From Tepidamorphus gemmatus (GTDB lineage Bacteria; Pseudomonadota; Alphaproteobacteria; Rhizobiales; Tepidamorphaceae): 64,000 bases of DNA. The position numbers were made by a program, and so were the translations under genes. The notes beneath the pieces were generated by a model. That model did no database searches and was not told where the DNA came from. It saw nothing but the letters and a program-made list of their open reading frames with translations. Below are positions 15,584-20,145 of this stretch, in pieces. The first letter of the stretch is position 1, and the number at the start of each line of letters is the position of its first letter. The stretch covers positions 186,001-250,000 of the forward strand of contig NZ_SMAK01000003.1 in NCBI RefSeq assembly GCF_004346195.1, written 5' to 3'.

Positions 15584-16255
15584 ATGATCGACGAGCCCTT
15601 CAGCCGCGCGGCTTGGCGCCGCAACGAGACGCTCTACGAGCGTATCCGGACGATGCCGTTCAACATGGCACTGGCCGCCGGAACGCTCGAGGCGGACCGC
15701 TTCCGCCACTACATCATTCAGGATGCGCATTACCTGACCGCGTTCGCCCGCGCGCTCGCCATCGCGGCAGCGAAGGCCGACGATGCCAACGGTATCGTCC
15801 AGTTCGCCGAGGCCGCGCGGGTCGCGATTGTCGTCGAGCGAAGCCTGCACGCCGACTACTTCGTCCGGTTCGGCGTCTCGCAGGAGGCGTTCGCCGCGGC
15901 AGGGCTGTCGCCCGCCTGTCATCACTATGTGTCGTTCCTGCTCGCCACGGCCCATGCCGAGCCCTACCCGGTCGTTCTCGCCGCGGTGCTGCCCTGTTTC
16001 TGGGTGTACGCCGAGGTCGGCCAGGACATCCATCGCCGCACCGTCGCCGCCAACCCCTATCAGGCATGGATCGACACCTACGCCGGCGAGGACTTCGCGG
16101 CGGCGGTCGCCGCGGTGATCGAAACGACCGATCGAGCCGCCGGAAGAGCCGCCCATGACACGCTCGAAGCGATGCATGCCGCCTTCACCCGCGCCATGCA
16201 GCTCGAATGGATGTTCTGGGATTCGGCCTGGCGTCTCGAACGATGGCCGGACTGA
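15584..16255 (+). CDS. tenA: TenA-family thiaminase II
   Basis: A 223-aa TenA protein, which salvages thiamin breakdown products by hydrolysing aminopyrimidines to HMP. The family residues are recognisable: QDAHYL (Asp47, Tyr50), the nucleophile region LPCFWVYAEVG (Cys138) and the C-terminal acid in LEWMFWDSAW. The active-site Cys makes it a TenA_C-type enzyme rather than the Cys-less TenA_E class. It begins 35 bp after atpC and could be read from the ATP synthase operon. A core neighbour (yggS) lies beyond the two accessory genes that follow. Confidence 0.92.
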   Translation: MIDEPFSRAAWRRNETLYERIRTMPFNMALAAGTLEADRFRHYIIQDAHYLTAFARALAIAAAKADDANGIVQFAEAARVAIVVERSLHADYFVRFGVSQEAFAAAGLSPACHHYVSFLLATAHAEPYPVVLAAVLPCFWVYAEVGQDIHRRTVAANPYQAWIDTYAGEDFAAAVAAVIETTDRAAGRAAHDTLEAMHAAFTRAMQLEWMFWDSAWRLERWPD

Positions 16256-16427: not shown

Positions 16428-18377
16428 ATGCGCATCCTGATCTACGGCGCGGGCAAGACCGGCACCACTGCGGTCTACTACGCCTTCAAGAACCTGCTGC
16501 CGAATCACATCGCGTTCTTCGAGCCGCCTTCGCTTCTGCAGCTGCCCTACGACCAGCATTCCGACATGCTGGTGAAGTCGCTGTCCGTCCTGCGGCATGA
16601 CAAGATGGCGTCGTCCTTCGAACGCTATCAGCAGAAGATCCTCATCGTCCGACACCCCTTCGACCGACTGGTCAGCTACATCCTGTTCGCGCCGAACAAT
16701 GGTCCGGGCTTCCTCGACGACCGCAACATGGAGCGCTACCTGGACCTCCTGCGCCGCAAGCTCGAGTCCCCGCGCAGCGTCTCGATGCGCGAGATCACCG
16801 CGATGGTCGAGGAGTACTACCCCTCGCGTGCGGCGATGCACGATTCGGTGACGGTCCTCGAGACCATTGCCCACACCTATCCCGACTTCTTCCTGCTGCG
16901 TTACGAGGACTTCGTCGACGGCAGGCTCGACGCGCTCAGCGCCTATTGCGGCCTGCCGCTGTCGAACGAGCCGGAGATCACCGGATTCGCCACGAAGGTC
17001 GCTCGTTCGAAATCCCATGGCGACTGGCACAAGTGGTTCCTGCCGGAAGATGTCACCCATTTCCGCGAGATATACGGCTCCTATCTCGAGCGCTTCGGCT
17101 ACGAAACGCAGATCGAGGAGGCCGAACCTCTCGATCTCGACACGACCATCAACTACAGCATCAAGGTCGGCAATCAGGGACGCCAGAACCGATGGCTGCC
17201 CATCTACGTGCCCGGCGAGGTCCACATGACCTGGGAAGGTCCCGCCTATCATGCGGCGCGTAACGCCTTCCAGCGCGGCTCCAAGGACGAGGCGCTGCGC
17301 ATGGTCGACGAGGTCATTGCAGGCGGTACCGCGATCGCCGGCTTCTTCGAACTCAAGTCACAGATCCTCGCCCAGGCGGAGGATTTCGCCGGGGCGGCAG
17401 AGGCGCTGCGCCAGGCAATGGCGCTCGCACCCGGAGAGGAATCTTTTGAGAAGCGGTTGAAAGGACTGCTGTCGAAGGAGAAATCTTCGGCCAGGCGAGT
17501 CCCGCCGCCTGCCTCAGCGCGGGGAACCGGGACGGCCGCCGGGTCCGGAGCGGCGCCGGCCGTGGCGCCAGCGGGACAGCCTGCCGCACGTCCGGCCGGC
17601 ACGGCGGTCCACCGAACGCTGATGCTGGGCCAGAGTCACATGCAGGGCATCAAGAAGGGCGCGACCATGCTCCGCACGGCCGGTCGCTTTCCCGCCAATC
17701 TGGCGCTCGAGTTCATCCAACTTCGGGCAGCCCGGTTCAACCCCTATTTCCCGGATGGCGGCGATACACTCAACGAGGCGTTGCTCCGTGAGATAGACGC
17801 GCATCTCGCCGCGACCGACCTCGTCGTCTCGGTGATCGGCGGCAATGCCTACAATGTGCTGGGGCTGGTCAATCACGAGCGCCCGTTCGATTTCGAGCTC
17901 TCTACCGATCCCGATCTGCCGCTGGCGGAGGATCGCGAGATCCTGCCCGAGGAGGTGGTTCGCGCCAGCCTGGACCGCCAGAATGCGAACGCGTTGCGGC
18001 TGCTCGGTGCGTTGAAGGCGCGGATCGGCAGGCCGTTTGTTCATGTGCAATCTCCCCCGCCCATTCCCAGCGAGGCGCACATCCGGGCCCATCCGGGCAA
18101 GTTCGCCGACAAGATCGCCCAGTTCGGCGTGACGCCGGCGATCATCCGCTACAAGCTGTGGAAGCTGCAGTCGGAGATCTTCCGCGCGTTCTGCGCCGCG
18201 AACGGCATCGCGTTCCTCGACGTTCCGGCGAATGTCGTCGATGAACGGGGCATGCTGGTCGAGGCGGCCTGGAGCAACGATCCCACCCACGGCAACGCCT
18301 GGTACGGCGAGCAGGTGATAGGGCAACTCTCCGGGTGGCTCGCATCTCAGAACGGCAGGTACGCGGGCGCGCACTGA
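16428..18377 (+). CDS. three-part fusion: sulfotransferase, TPR segment, SGNH hydrolase-like domain
   Basis: A 649-aa protein with three regions. Residues 1-225 resemble a PAPS-dependent sulfotransferase: GAGKTGTTAVYYAF (7-20) is the 5'-phosphosulfate loop, VRHPFDRLVSYI (74-85) the 3'-phosphate motif, and LRYEDFVDG (158-165) and DWHKWFLPED fit the family. Residues 272-350 are helical with TPR character. An Ala/Pro-rich linker (352-394) leads to a C-terminal SGNH-like domain with LGQSH (400-404), IGGN (470-473) and DPTHGN (618-623), giving a possible Ser403-Asp618-His621 triad; block I has Gln where GDS enzymes have Asp. No signal peptide is seen, so cytoplasmic action on a sugar or lipid-linked intermediate is likely. 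It is coupled to the GSCFA gene. Substrate unknown. Confidence 0.82.
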   Translation: MRILIYGAGKTGTTAVYYAFKNLLPNHIAFFEPPSLLQLPYDQHSDMLVKSLSVLRHDKMASSFERYQQKILIVRHPFDRLVSYILFAPNNGPGFLDDRNMERYLDLLRRKLESPRSVSMREITAMVEEYYPSRAAMHDSVTVLETIAHTYPDFFLLRYEDFVDGRLDALSAYCGLPLSNEPEITGFATKVARSKSHGDWHKWFLPEDVTHFREIYGSYLERFGYETQIEEAEPLDLDTTINYSIKVGNQGRQNRWLPIYVPGEVHMTWEGPAYHAARNAFQRGSKDEALRMVDEVIAGGTAIAGFFELKSQILAQAEDFAGAAEALRQAMALAPGEESFEKRLKGLLSKEKSSARRVPPPASARGTGTAAGSGAAPAVAPAGQPAARPAGTAVHRTLMLGQSHMQGIKKGATMLRTAGRFPANLALEFIQLRAARFNPYFPDGGDTLNEALLREIDAHLAATDLVVSVIGGNAYNVLGLVNHERPFDFELSTDPDLPLAEDREILPEEVVRASLDRQNANALRLLGALKARIGRPFVHVQSPPPIPSEAHIRAHPGKFADKIAQFGVTPAIIRYKLWKLQSEIFRAFCAANGIAFLDVPANVVDERGMLVEAAWSNDPTHGNAWYGEQVIGQLSGWLASQNGRYAGAH

Positions 18378-19486
18378 TGGCCACACCCTATTCCGATCAG
18401 CCGCCACACGCCTTCTGGCGCTCCGCGATGGCCGGCGTCCCGGCCGATGACGTTGATCCGGTCGTCCGCGCTGCCTTCCGCATCCCGGCCGACGCGCCGG
18501 TGATGACCGCCGGCAGCTGTTTCGCCCAGCACATCGGCCGAAACCTCGAGGCTCGCGGACTCAACCATCTCGTCACCGAGACGGCCCATCCGCTGATGCC
18601 CCCGGACATGGCTCGCGCCGCCGGCTACGGCGTCTTTTCGGCGCGCTACGCAAACATCTACACCGCGCGGCAGTTCCTCCAGCTGCTGCAGCGTGCCTAC
18701 GGGAGGTTCGAACCGGTCGAGGACGTGTGGAGCACCGAGACCGGGCGCTTTGTCGATCCGTTCCGGCCACGCATCGAGCCGCAAGGCTTCCGCAGCGCCG
18801 CAGCCTGCCGCGCTGATACGGTGCGCCATCTTGGCTGCGTGCGCGCAGCCGTGGAACAGATGTCGGTGCTGGTCTTCACCCTGGGGCTCACCGAGGCCTG
18901 GCGTTCGCGCGCCGATGGCGCGACCTATCCGCTCTGTCCGGGCGTCGCCGGTGGCAGCTTCGATCCCGCGCGGTACGAATTCGTCAATTTCGGGGTCGAC
19001 GAGGTCGCCGACGACCTGACAACCGCGATCGGTCTGATCCGGGACGTGAACCCATCGGCGAAGGTGATCCTCACGGTCTCGCCGGTGCCGCTGGCCGCCA
19101 CGGCGGTCGACAGGCATGTGCTGGTCTCGACCACCCTGTCAAAGGCCGTCCTGCGCGTCGCTGCCGAACAGGTGGCCTCCCGGCTGTCGGATGTCGCCTA
19201 TTTCCCCTCCTACGAGATCATCACCGGCCCGCATGCGCGCGGGAGCTACTTCGGCGCCGACCTGCGTTCGGTGACCGAGGCCGGCGTGGAGCATGTGATG
19301 CGGCTGTTCTTCCGCCACTACATGGGGCTCGAGCCCCGGACCGAGGTTGCCCGTTCGCCCGTTCCCGCGGATGCCCGCAGCGATGCCCACACCGAGGAGA
19401 TGGCCGAACTGGTCGAGGTCGATTGCGACGAGGTTGTGCTCGAGGCGCTGGCGCCGGAGAATGGCGATTCGGAGCCCGCGCGATGA
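18377..19486 (+). CDS. GSCFA domain protein
   Basis: A 369-aa protein carrying the literal family motif GSCFA (46-50) in VMTAGSCFAQHIGRNLE. GSCFA proteins are related to SGNH hydrolases and often sit with polysaccharide genes; that is family knowledge, and enzymatic activity is unproven. Further family blocks are YGVFSARYANIYTARQFLQL (split at Tyr), LVFTLGLTEAW and VILTVSPVPLAAT, followed by YFPSYEIITG. The acidic tail (about 340-369) looks disordered. The ATG overlaps the stop of the sulfotransferase fusion by one base, and its own stop overlaps the yggS start by four. The two accessory genes are therefore wired into a core gene's transcript. Confidence 0.88.
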   Translation: MATPYSDQPPHAFWRSAMAGVPADDVDPVVRAAFRIPADAPVMTAGSCFAQHIGRNLEARGLNHLVTETAHPLMPPDMARAAGYGVFSARYANIYTARQFLQLLQRAYGRFEPVEDVWSTETGRFVDPFRPRIEPQGFRSAAACRADTVRHLGCVRAAVEQMSVLVFTLGLTEAWRSRADGATYPLCPGVAGGSFDPARYEFVNFGVDEVADDLTTAIGLIRDVNPSAKVILTVSPVPLAATAVDRHVLVSTTLSKAVLRVAAEQVASRLSDVAYFPSYEIITGPHARGSYFGADLRSVTEAGVEHVMRLFFRHYMGLEPRTEVARSPVPADARSDAHTEEMAELVEVDCDEVVLEALAPENGDSEPAR

Positions 19487-20145
19487 GCGCCGCCGACCGT
19501 CTTGCCGACATCCGCAGCGCGATCGACCGGGCCACCGCCGCCGCCGGACGCCCGGACGGCGCCGTGACGCTTGTTGCCGTCTCGAAGACGTTCGGCGCCG
19601 CCGACATCGCACCGGTGATCGCTGCCGGCCAGCGCGTCTTCGGCGAGAACCGCGTCCAGGAGGCCCAGGCCAAGTGGCCGGCTCTGAAAGCAGCCCATCC
19701 CGACATCGAGCTGCACCTGATCGGCCCGCTGCAGACCAACAAGGTACGCGACGCCGTGGCGTTGTTCGACGTCATCGAAACCGTCGACCGCGACCGTCTG
19801 GCTGAGGCCTTGGCGAGGGAAATCGCCCGCCAGGGTCGCACGCCGCGGCTGTTCGTACAGGTCAACACCGGCGCGGAGCCGCAGAAGGCCGGCGTGTTGC
19901 CTGAAGAGACCGCTGCCTTCGTCACGCGCTGCCGCGACACCTACGGCCTCGACATAGAAGGACTGATGGCGATTCCACCGCTCGACGAGGCGCCGGCCCC
20001 GCATTTCGCCCTTCTGGCCAGGCTCGCCCGCGAACTCGGACTGCCCGGACTGTCGATGGGCATGAGCGCCGACTTTGAGATCGGGATCGCCCATGGCGCC
20101 ACCCATGTGCGTGTCGGCAGCGCCATCTTCGGCAGCCGGGGATAG
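19483..20145 (+). CDS. yggS: YggS/PROSC family pyridoxal phosphate homeostasis protein
   Basis: A 220-aa single-domain PLP-binding TIM-barrel protein related to the alanine racemase N-terminal domain. The PLP lysine is Lys35 in LVAVSKTF. FGENRVQEAQAKW, HLIGPLQTNK and LSMGMSADFEIGIAHGATHVRVGSAIFG (phosphate-binding end) are all present. These proteins control free PLP and amino acid balance and are not racemases. The start at 19483 overlaps the GSCFA stop (ATGA). In related genomes yggS normally lies near leuS, as here. Confidence 0.93.
   Translation: MSAADRLADIRSAIDRATAAAGRPDGAVTLVAVSKTFGAADIAPVIAAGQRVFGENRVQEAQAKWPALKAAHPDIELHLIGPLQTNKVRDAVALFDVIETVDRDRLAEALAREIARQGRTPRLFVQVNTGAEPQKAGVLPEETAAFVTRCRDTYGLDIEGLMAIPPLDEAPAPHFALLARLARELGLPGLSMGMSADFEIGIAHGATHVRVGSAIFGSRG

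Follow-up and report, generated by a model that had tools for sequence, protein, structure and literature searches.

The closest described counterpart of the locus reported here is PipDFG. In the biosynthesis of pseudotetraivprolide, the GSCFA protein PipG, PipF and PipD are all required for the last O-acetylation, according to genetic evidence from 2025 (PMC12828459). A pipG deletion is rescued by pipFG but not by pipG alone, and Ser18 and His211 of PipF and Cys47 of PipG matter for acetylation in vivo. The paper reports pipD, pipF and pipG only together and only in detoxin/rimosamide-like clusters. Our subject is a two-gene locus in a 64,000-nt window (the whole stretch of DNA analysed: positions 186,001–250,000 of Tepidamorphus gemmatus contig NZ_SMAK01000003.1, assembly GCF_004346195.1; all coordinates below are window positions). 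Its first gene, open reading frame 1 (ORF1), encodes a fusion of a sulfotransferase domain, a tetratricopeptide repeat (TPR) segment, a linker and a C-terminal SGNH domain; its second encodes a GSCFA protein. As in PipFG, where both proteins are needed, an SGNH-type protein with Ser, Asp and His lies beside a protein with the essential Cys of the GSCFA motif. Unlike PipDFG, the locus comes without a clear PipD in the genome, its SGNH domain is fused to a sulfotransferase and TPR segment, and relatives of its SGNH–GSCFA pair also occur in glycan loci.

In AT3-SGNH enzymes of the OafA/OafB type, the SGNH domain is the acyl-transferring half of a two-part O-acyltransferase. ORF1 and the GSCFA protein differ from these in having no membrane acyltransferase domain: neither matches PF01757 (membrane acyltransferase-3), and their highest 19-residue mean hydropathy is 1.3, with no evident membrane span. 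One relative, from Ancylobacter koreensis (L075:7986-10241), does have GSCFA fused to a membrane Acyl_transf_3 domain. Peptidoglycan O-acetylation by PatA/PatB also combines an SGNH-fold O-acetyltransferase with a second protein, and PatB structures were among our fold matches. PatB is periplasmic and has a membrane partner, whereas ORF1 and the GSCFA protein look cytoplasmic. The capsule enzyme WcbI (PF18588) was crystallised with coenzyme A (CoA), was inactive alone and was proposed in 2013 to need an unidentified partner (PMC4104973); among the papers listed by our literature search, no later report names that partner. WcbI is a different domain from the SGNH set (profile comparison not significant, probability 1%), but like SGNH it is found fused to or beside one particular kind of GSCFA. 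A 2022 review counts GSCFA among the SGNH families for which neither function nor structure is known (PMC9487903).

With moderate confidence, we propose that ORF1 and the GSCFA protein form a cytoplasmic two-subunit O-acyltransferase, most likely an O-acetyltransferase, with the catalytic SGNH subunit fused behind a sulfotransferase and TPR segment, and that this single complex places sulfate as well as acetyl on a shared acceptor. It would be a candidate enzyme for decorating one molecule with both groups. The proposal builds on the domains, the gene module, the two kinds of GSCFA and their partner rule, all of them observed; from these we infer the donor, acceptor and chemistry in T. gemmatus. 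A preliminary description of this DNA knew of no described system with such a layout. This holds for the three-domain fusion, of which we found no account in the literature, while the acetylating half does have a counterpart (PMC12828459).

The SGNH–GSCFA pair

ORF1 (16428..18377, + strand, as are all features below) is one uninterrupted open frame of 649 aa. Its sulfotransferase domain spans residues ~1–230 (16428..17117), the TPR segment ~267–355 (17226..17492), an Ala/Pro/Gly-rich linker read off the translation ~356–394 (17493..17609), and the SGNH (PipF-like) domain ~396–649 (17613..18374). The GSCFA gene (18377..19486) starts at ATG 18377, sharing 1 base with the end of ORF1 (TGATG), and the two are likely carried on one transcript; a promoter and terminator scan of the locus gave nothing informative. 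The preliminary description was right about both the four-part fusion, borne out by the single frame and the evidence for each domain, and the overlap of the two genes, although the GSCFA gene had to be corrected to 369 aa with this start.

No Pfam family matches the C-terminus of ORF1. It aligns with free-standing SGNH proteins bearing GxSH and DxTH, whose genes are also found by tblastn, and its catalytic residues are Ser403 (in GQSH) and Asp618 and His621 (in DPTH). In an alignment of 68 rows (ORF1, the natural SGNH–GSCFA fusion L095 of Paracoccus lichenicola and 66 others), Ser403 is present in 67 with one gap and His621 in all 68. The free-standing pair of Thalassovita (L006) keeps the whole triad. 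The fold was assessed on L095, whose model has a predicted local distance difference test score (pLDDT) of 89.7 and a predicted template modelling score of 0.62, so that the relative placement of its two halves is uncertain. Residues 1–267, homologous to the ORF1 domain, take an SGNH fold (Z 12.7 to EstL5, 11.2 to PatB), as does the GSCFA half at residues 298–592 (Z 12.5 to the peptidoglycan O-acetylesterase Ape1). The single chain of L095 is thus predicted to contain the SGNH fold twice; for ORF1, the fold is seen on the homologous half and not on its own domain. The L095 tail carrying the second Cys has low model confidence (49–68).

Residues of the same kind as PipF Ser18 and His211 and PipG Cys47 occupy the same motifs in ORF1 and the GSCFA protein. 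In three Streptomyces detoxin-like clusters from plasmid records, the gene beside GSCFA is the only match to the SGNH profile among 410 frames, at its GDSH and DxxH blocks (E 1.8e-5 to 2.2e-4; 2.7e-8 to 7e-6 with a larger profile).

By sequence comparison, SGNH plus GSCFA is a module that recurs widely, has mostly gone unnoticed and has a single described counterpart. The named loci on which most counts rest are the best 80 of at least 582 GSCFA relatives, found by scanning named genomes with the GSCFA alignment, and this sample leans to close relatives. An SGNH gene lies directly upstream of GSCFA in 70 of the 80, including the L095 fusion and two partial SGNH reads (L037, at a contig edge, and L038). 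Among the 69 unfused pairs, 41 overlap by 1–4 bases, with starts chosen by us. The remaining ten loci comprise one with SGNH a gene away (L089), six with WcbI fused N-terminally to GSCFA (L046, L048 from Kordiimonas, L064 from Sphingobium, L067, L068, L074), two with an adjoining WcbI gene (L057, L088) and L049, a locus at a contig edge in which no partner is visible; WcbI was confirmed by Pfam in all eight cases. On plasmids, tblastn with ORF1 matched its SGNH part in six records, and a GSCFA gene follows in each (in L008 and L011 by open frame). Sinorhizobium meliloti Rm41 likewise carries an SGNH–GSCFA pair, with GSCFA of the paired kind described below, on pSymB (L164). The comparison extends one natural-product enzyme to the glycan loci of many bacteria. 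In a delta-proteobacterial metagenome-assembled genome, GSCFA is fused to a PhyH dioxygenase domain (L032:1484-3757). In Methylocystis (L039:6940-7215) and relatives (L020, L042, L047, L070), a conserved gene of ~92 aa with no Pfam match above cut-off directly precedes the SGNH gene.

Two kinds of GSCFA protein

The T. gemmatus GSCFA protein matches PF08885 with E 4.4e-52 (177.6 bits against a gathering cut-off of 25). We distinguish two kinds of GSCFA. The paired kind, as defined in this analysis, lacks the block-V His of SGNH enzymes, carries a tail C-[DE]-[DE] motif and has SGNH or WcbI as a partner, either fused to it or encoded alongside; the solo kind keeps the block-V His and lacks the tail Cys350. 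The T. gemmatus protein is of the paired kind, with Ser298 where the His would be, Cys350-Asp-Glu in the tail and its SGNH partner in ORF1. A reading of the locus as two ordinary hydrolases was ruled out, since this kind of GSCFA has no block-V His. Across 84 rows (T. gemmatus, the 80 named loci and 3 Streptomyces), Cys48 and tail Cys350 are invariant, and no row has His at position 298, which is occupied by S (38), E (15), N (14), T (12), D (4) or L (1). The same block reads DDMLH in Bacteroides finegoldii GSCFA, with the usual SGNH His.

We classified 37 further GSCFA proteins from plasmids and from a sample of 385 genomes of the class, and found 25 paired, 12 solo and no mixtures. An SGNH or WcbI neighbour was detected by profile for 21 of the 25 paired proteins versus 0 of the 12 solo ones (Fisher p ~1e-6, only a guide because the rows are related by descent). 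The profile threshold was E 1e-3 for the class sample and E 1e-2, unfiltered, for the plasmid and later sets; the weakest partners accepted were those of L142 (9e-4) and L161 (5e-3). Four paired proteins had no counted partner. Two of them show a C-terminal SGNH-like domain by eye (L139, L147; Pfam SGNH E 0.0025 in L147, below cut-off). In a third, on a Gemmobacter fulvus plasmid (L162:1536-2498), GSCFA overlaps an upstream gene that is alpha/beta-hydrolase-like by eye (GGSSGA) and has no Pfam match; the fourth, L156, is discussed below. Within the class sample, profiles detected a partner for 13 of 17 GSCFA genes and inspection by eye for two others; of the two left without one, one is solo-kind. 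This count merges two contig-edge pieces of G198 into a single gene, and likewise two pieces in G122:C4; 14 of the 37 proteins come from the class sample, so the two counts overlap.

A prediction fixed beforehand was evaluated at 19 new places among 101 relatives. A partner was present for 10 of 10 paired-kind proteins (9 of 9 by alignment alone, L187 being misaligned and its tail CEE read by eye) versus 0 of 7 solo-kind ones, with WcbI as the Pfam-confirmed partner in L183 and L184. The remainder were a fragment (L193) and a protein of neither kind, without His, tail or partner (L201). In a GSCFA tree built from a random draw of 25 of the 80 named sequences plus all others (84 in total), one split with support 0.895 sets all 64 paired-kind members, L187 included, apart.

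Absence of the block-V His together with a tail Cys goes with the presence of a partner, a simple sequence rule for GSCFA. The comparison also suggests paired-kind GSCFA as the partner postulated for WcbI. The most useful outcome of this work is the two-kind rule, along with the proposal that SGNH/PipF-like and WcbI acyltransferases have their obligate partner in paired-kind GSCFA; the rule makes the questions of GSCFA function and of the WcbI partner directly testable. A more far-reaching version, which we offer tentatively and consider doubtful as a whole, is that paired-kind GSCFA serves as a general second subunit of cytoplasmic Ser/Cys acyltransferases (SGNH/PipF-like, WcbI and possibly alpha/beta-hydrolases). 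These proteins would have lost their own catalytic His on becoming obligate partners, with Cys48 and Cys350 on its flexible tail relaying acetyl or completing the active site. GSCFA would then be the missing WcbI partner, and in T. gemmatus the pair would be joined to a sulfotransferase, giving a single complex that modifies one acceptor with both sulfate and acetyl.

Some GSCFA loci have other neighbours. On a Parasedimentitalea marina plasmid (L168:2342-5496), a solo-kind GSCFA gene precedes two annotated sulfotransferase genes. Another solo-kind gene, on a Pontibrevibacter plasmid (L171:2318-5747), is followed by an acyl carrier protein gene and farther on by one for ketoacyl-ACP synthase III, a hint that the donor there might be acyl-ACP. 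A DUF1501 gene lies near GSCFA in two lineages (G418:C43 by Pfam and L009 by annotation), the second of which also has an annotated DUF1800 gene.

Sulfation, acceptor and alternative readings

The proposed reaction would run in three steps. First, Ser403 of the SGNH domain would take an acetyl group, aided by Asp618 and His621, probably from acetyl-CoA; the triad, the PipF mutants and, by inference, the CoA-binding type of partner seen in WcbI all point this way. Second, GSCFA would act as an obligate partner, not as another ordinary hydrolase, and may either pass acetyl on or complete the site for the acceptor, given its SGNH fold without the block-V His, its conserved Cys48 (compare PipG Cys47, needed in vivo) and its tail Cys350. 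Least certain is the third step, in which the N-terminal domain would move sulfate from 3'-phosphoadenosine 5'-phosphosulfate (PAPS) to the same acceptor while the TPR segment holds the acceptor or the partner. The preliminary description had the module adding or removing acyl groups. Acyl chemistry is retained here and sharpened to the addition of acetyl, because the pair resembles PipF and PipG.

Two segments of the N-terminal domain, GKTGTT (residues 9–14) and RHPFDRLVS (75–83), align with the sulfotransferases of related loci; a GxxGTT-like N-terminal loop and RxPxxRxxS are the nucleotide-binding motifs of sulfotransferases. A profile built from sulfotransferase genes of related loci, with the window excluded, aligns ORF1 residues 69–227 at 24.5 bits, and Sulfotransfer_2 gives E 0.011. 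With the sulfotransferase–TPR model (pLDDT 60.7), Foldseek returned SULT1C3 with bound 3'-phosphoadenosine 5'-phosphate (E 9.8e-3, prob 0.99) as the sole sulfotransferase among the 50 rows shown. The 50 rows of the VIA structure search with this model were filled by the TPR part and held no sulfotransferase, and sequence searches of PDB gave a best E of 0.69. The TPR segment is weak by sequence (TPR_2 E 0.13; NCBIfam TPR models E 0.004–0.005) and clear in the predicted model, where residues 267–355 reach Z 14.1 to TPR proteins. TPR-containing sulfotransferases are a known group and resemble ORF1 in joining these two parts. The closest such relative in the class sample, one gene read in two frames at 30–36% identity, is without an SGNH domain, unlike ORF1.

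Separate sulfotransferase genes recur beside the pair, which upholds the link between sulfotransferase and SGNH–GSCFA drawn in the preliminary description. By our gene calls, one directly follows GSCFA in at least four of the best 80 named loci (L043, L069, L078, L087), and one does so in Octadecabacter (L007). Others lie farther off (L079, L065, L094 and Pararhizobium L008, the last two within a few kb), and L061 has a short piece. Because L007, L043, L069 and L078 all have rhamnan synthesis F as the next gene, these four may represent one jointly inherited event. The 74 immediate neighbours scored include Sulfotransfer_3 (5), Sulfotransfer_1 (4), epimerases (8), glutamine synthetases (6) and RimP (6). 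In Pararhizobium L008, an APS kinase gene stands between GSCFA and the sulfotransferase. The T. gemmatus genome itself has an APS kinase domain, which would serve PAPS supply, in a 652-aa frame, and one other sulfotransferase above the Pfam cut-off.

Several observations weigh against our proposal. E. coli carrying pipDFG gave no acetylation (data not shown in the paper; PMC12828459), and Asp618, kept in 64 of 68 SGNH rows, is replaced in four, including the L095 fusion, which has Asn there; these two points slightly reduce our confidence. The PipF likeness was seen with Streptomyces equivalents of P. entomophila PipF, and homology between the ORF1 SGNH domain and PipF-type proteins runs through conserved blocks rather than the full length (hhalign probability 93% over 55 columns). 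A search for PipD with one Streptomyces query, SpcZ, an inferred PipD equivalent, gave a weak match in the T. gemmatus genome (E 0.0175) with a stop inside, and SpcZ-type matches among the frames of our loci were confined to Streptomyces. The paired-kind GSCFA of L156 (G418) has no partner nearby; the SGNH protein of that genome is encoded on a different contig. Fusion to a sulfotransferase is a new arrangement, observed in one genome. The SGNH alignment matched three of the 385 genomes in the class sample and the sulfotransferase domain three, with both only in T. gemmatus (few candidates per genome were scored). No second fusion of the two was seen in the class sample, on plasmids, where no match covered the sulfotransferase part, or in the best 80 named loci, where no SGNH-bearing gene holds a sulfotransferase-profile match. 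Viral contigs held no relative of the ORF1 sulfotransferase. Other adverse points belong to the alternatives that follow or to the gene order described in the last section.

Of these alternatives, a different acceptor is the most credible, and we regard it as a real possibility though not the leading one: a soluble peptide, a lipid or a small metabolite instead of a surface polysaccharide. PipDFG acts on a depsipeptide (PMC12828459), no glycan gene was recognised by eye among the T. gemmatus frames at 10–26 kb, and in L036, L073 and L084 the pair sits between glutamine synthetase and RimP genes (both confirmed), outside any glycan locus. Conversely, several relatives adjoin sugar epimerases, dTDP-rhamnose genes, rhamnan synthesis or glycosyltransferase genes, and by analogy with these a surface glycan is a plausible acceptor. 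In L054 and L059, glutamine synthetase lies on the upstream side of the pair, the only side checked.

The sulfotransferase-like domain may no longer make sulfate esters and, with the TPR segment, act only as an acceptor-binding or docking arm of the acetyltransferase, which we consider unlikely. Sulfotransfer_1 (PF00685) covers residues 3–162 at E 5.4e-4 and 19.9 bits, under its 22-bit cut-off, the fold model is too poor to reveal a PAPS site, and the closest relative found is the distant two-frame gene. Against this stand the alignment of both the nucleotide-binding motifs and the C-terminal part of the domain with sulfotransferases of related loci, the recurrence of sulfotransferase genes beside the pair and the APS kinase in the genome.

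More improbable, in our view, is an O-acetyl esterase in which SGNH and GSCFA trim acetyl and the sulfotransferase acts on the freed hydroxyl. Many fold relatives of the SGNH domain are indeed esterases, the nearest including acetylxylan, sialic-acid and peptidoglycan O-acetylesterases, and a Ser-Asp-His triad is also typical of them. However, PipF and PipG are required for adding acetyl rather than removing it (PMC12828459), the O-acetyltransferase PatB is among the fold matches, and partners elsewhere are WcbI or Acyl_transf_3. Least probable of all is a chance join of two unrelated, merely co-expressed enzymes: the fusion was seen in one genome only and the sulfotransferases near other pairs are distant from that of ORF1 (20–23% identity), but both activities occur as separate neighbouring genes in L007, L043, L069, L078 and L087, and in L008 and L094 their genes lie a few kb apart at most.

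Genomic position and neighbouring genes

The two genes lie between a tenA-family gene (15584..16255, identified by family match), outside the module, and yggS (19483..20145; PLP-binding YggS family, TIGR00044). The last 4 bases of the GSCFA gene, including its stop, are shared with yggS, which begins at ATG 19483 and is probably co-translated with GSCFA. The preliminary description saw the cassette as interrupting a conserved tenA–yggS run, an insertion that we reject on the gene orders of family-mates. All eight family genomes (T. gemmatus and seven others) have yggS, and tenA occurs in the seven family-mates (close in five, at 56–71% identity, and distant in two, at 31–32%). In the five yggS regions retrieved from them, yggS and leuS are divergent and tenA is absent from the stretch, and in the four tenA regions retrieved, tenA lies beside atp genes. 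Since these family-mates keep yggS by leuS and tenA by atp genes, the T. gemmatus order atp–tenA–cassette–yggS–leuS looks like a rearrangement rather than an interrupted run.

Acquisition of the cassette fits the sparse distribution of ORF1 matches and paired-type GSCFA among 100 relatives, which is not proof of it. ORF1 matched three of these genomes, in its TPR region only (up to 12 candidates scored per genome). Scores typical of paired-type GSCFA (E <1e-100) occur in 10 of the 100 and in none of the seven family-mates, one of which has a contig-edge fragment (E 3.6e-49). ORF1 has a guanine-plus-cytosine fraction of 0.643, a low value (1st percentile among 1950-base segments of the window), and the GSCFA gene one of 0.683, which is ordinary. 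In Bacteroides finegoldii (L159:2662-6185), a solo GSCFA gene overlaps a gene annotated as a fused MurF-type ligase/alanine racemase; in T. gemmatus the gene that GSCFA overlaps, yggS, has a match to the alanine racemase N-terminal domain.

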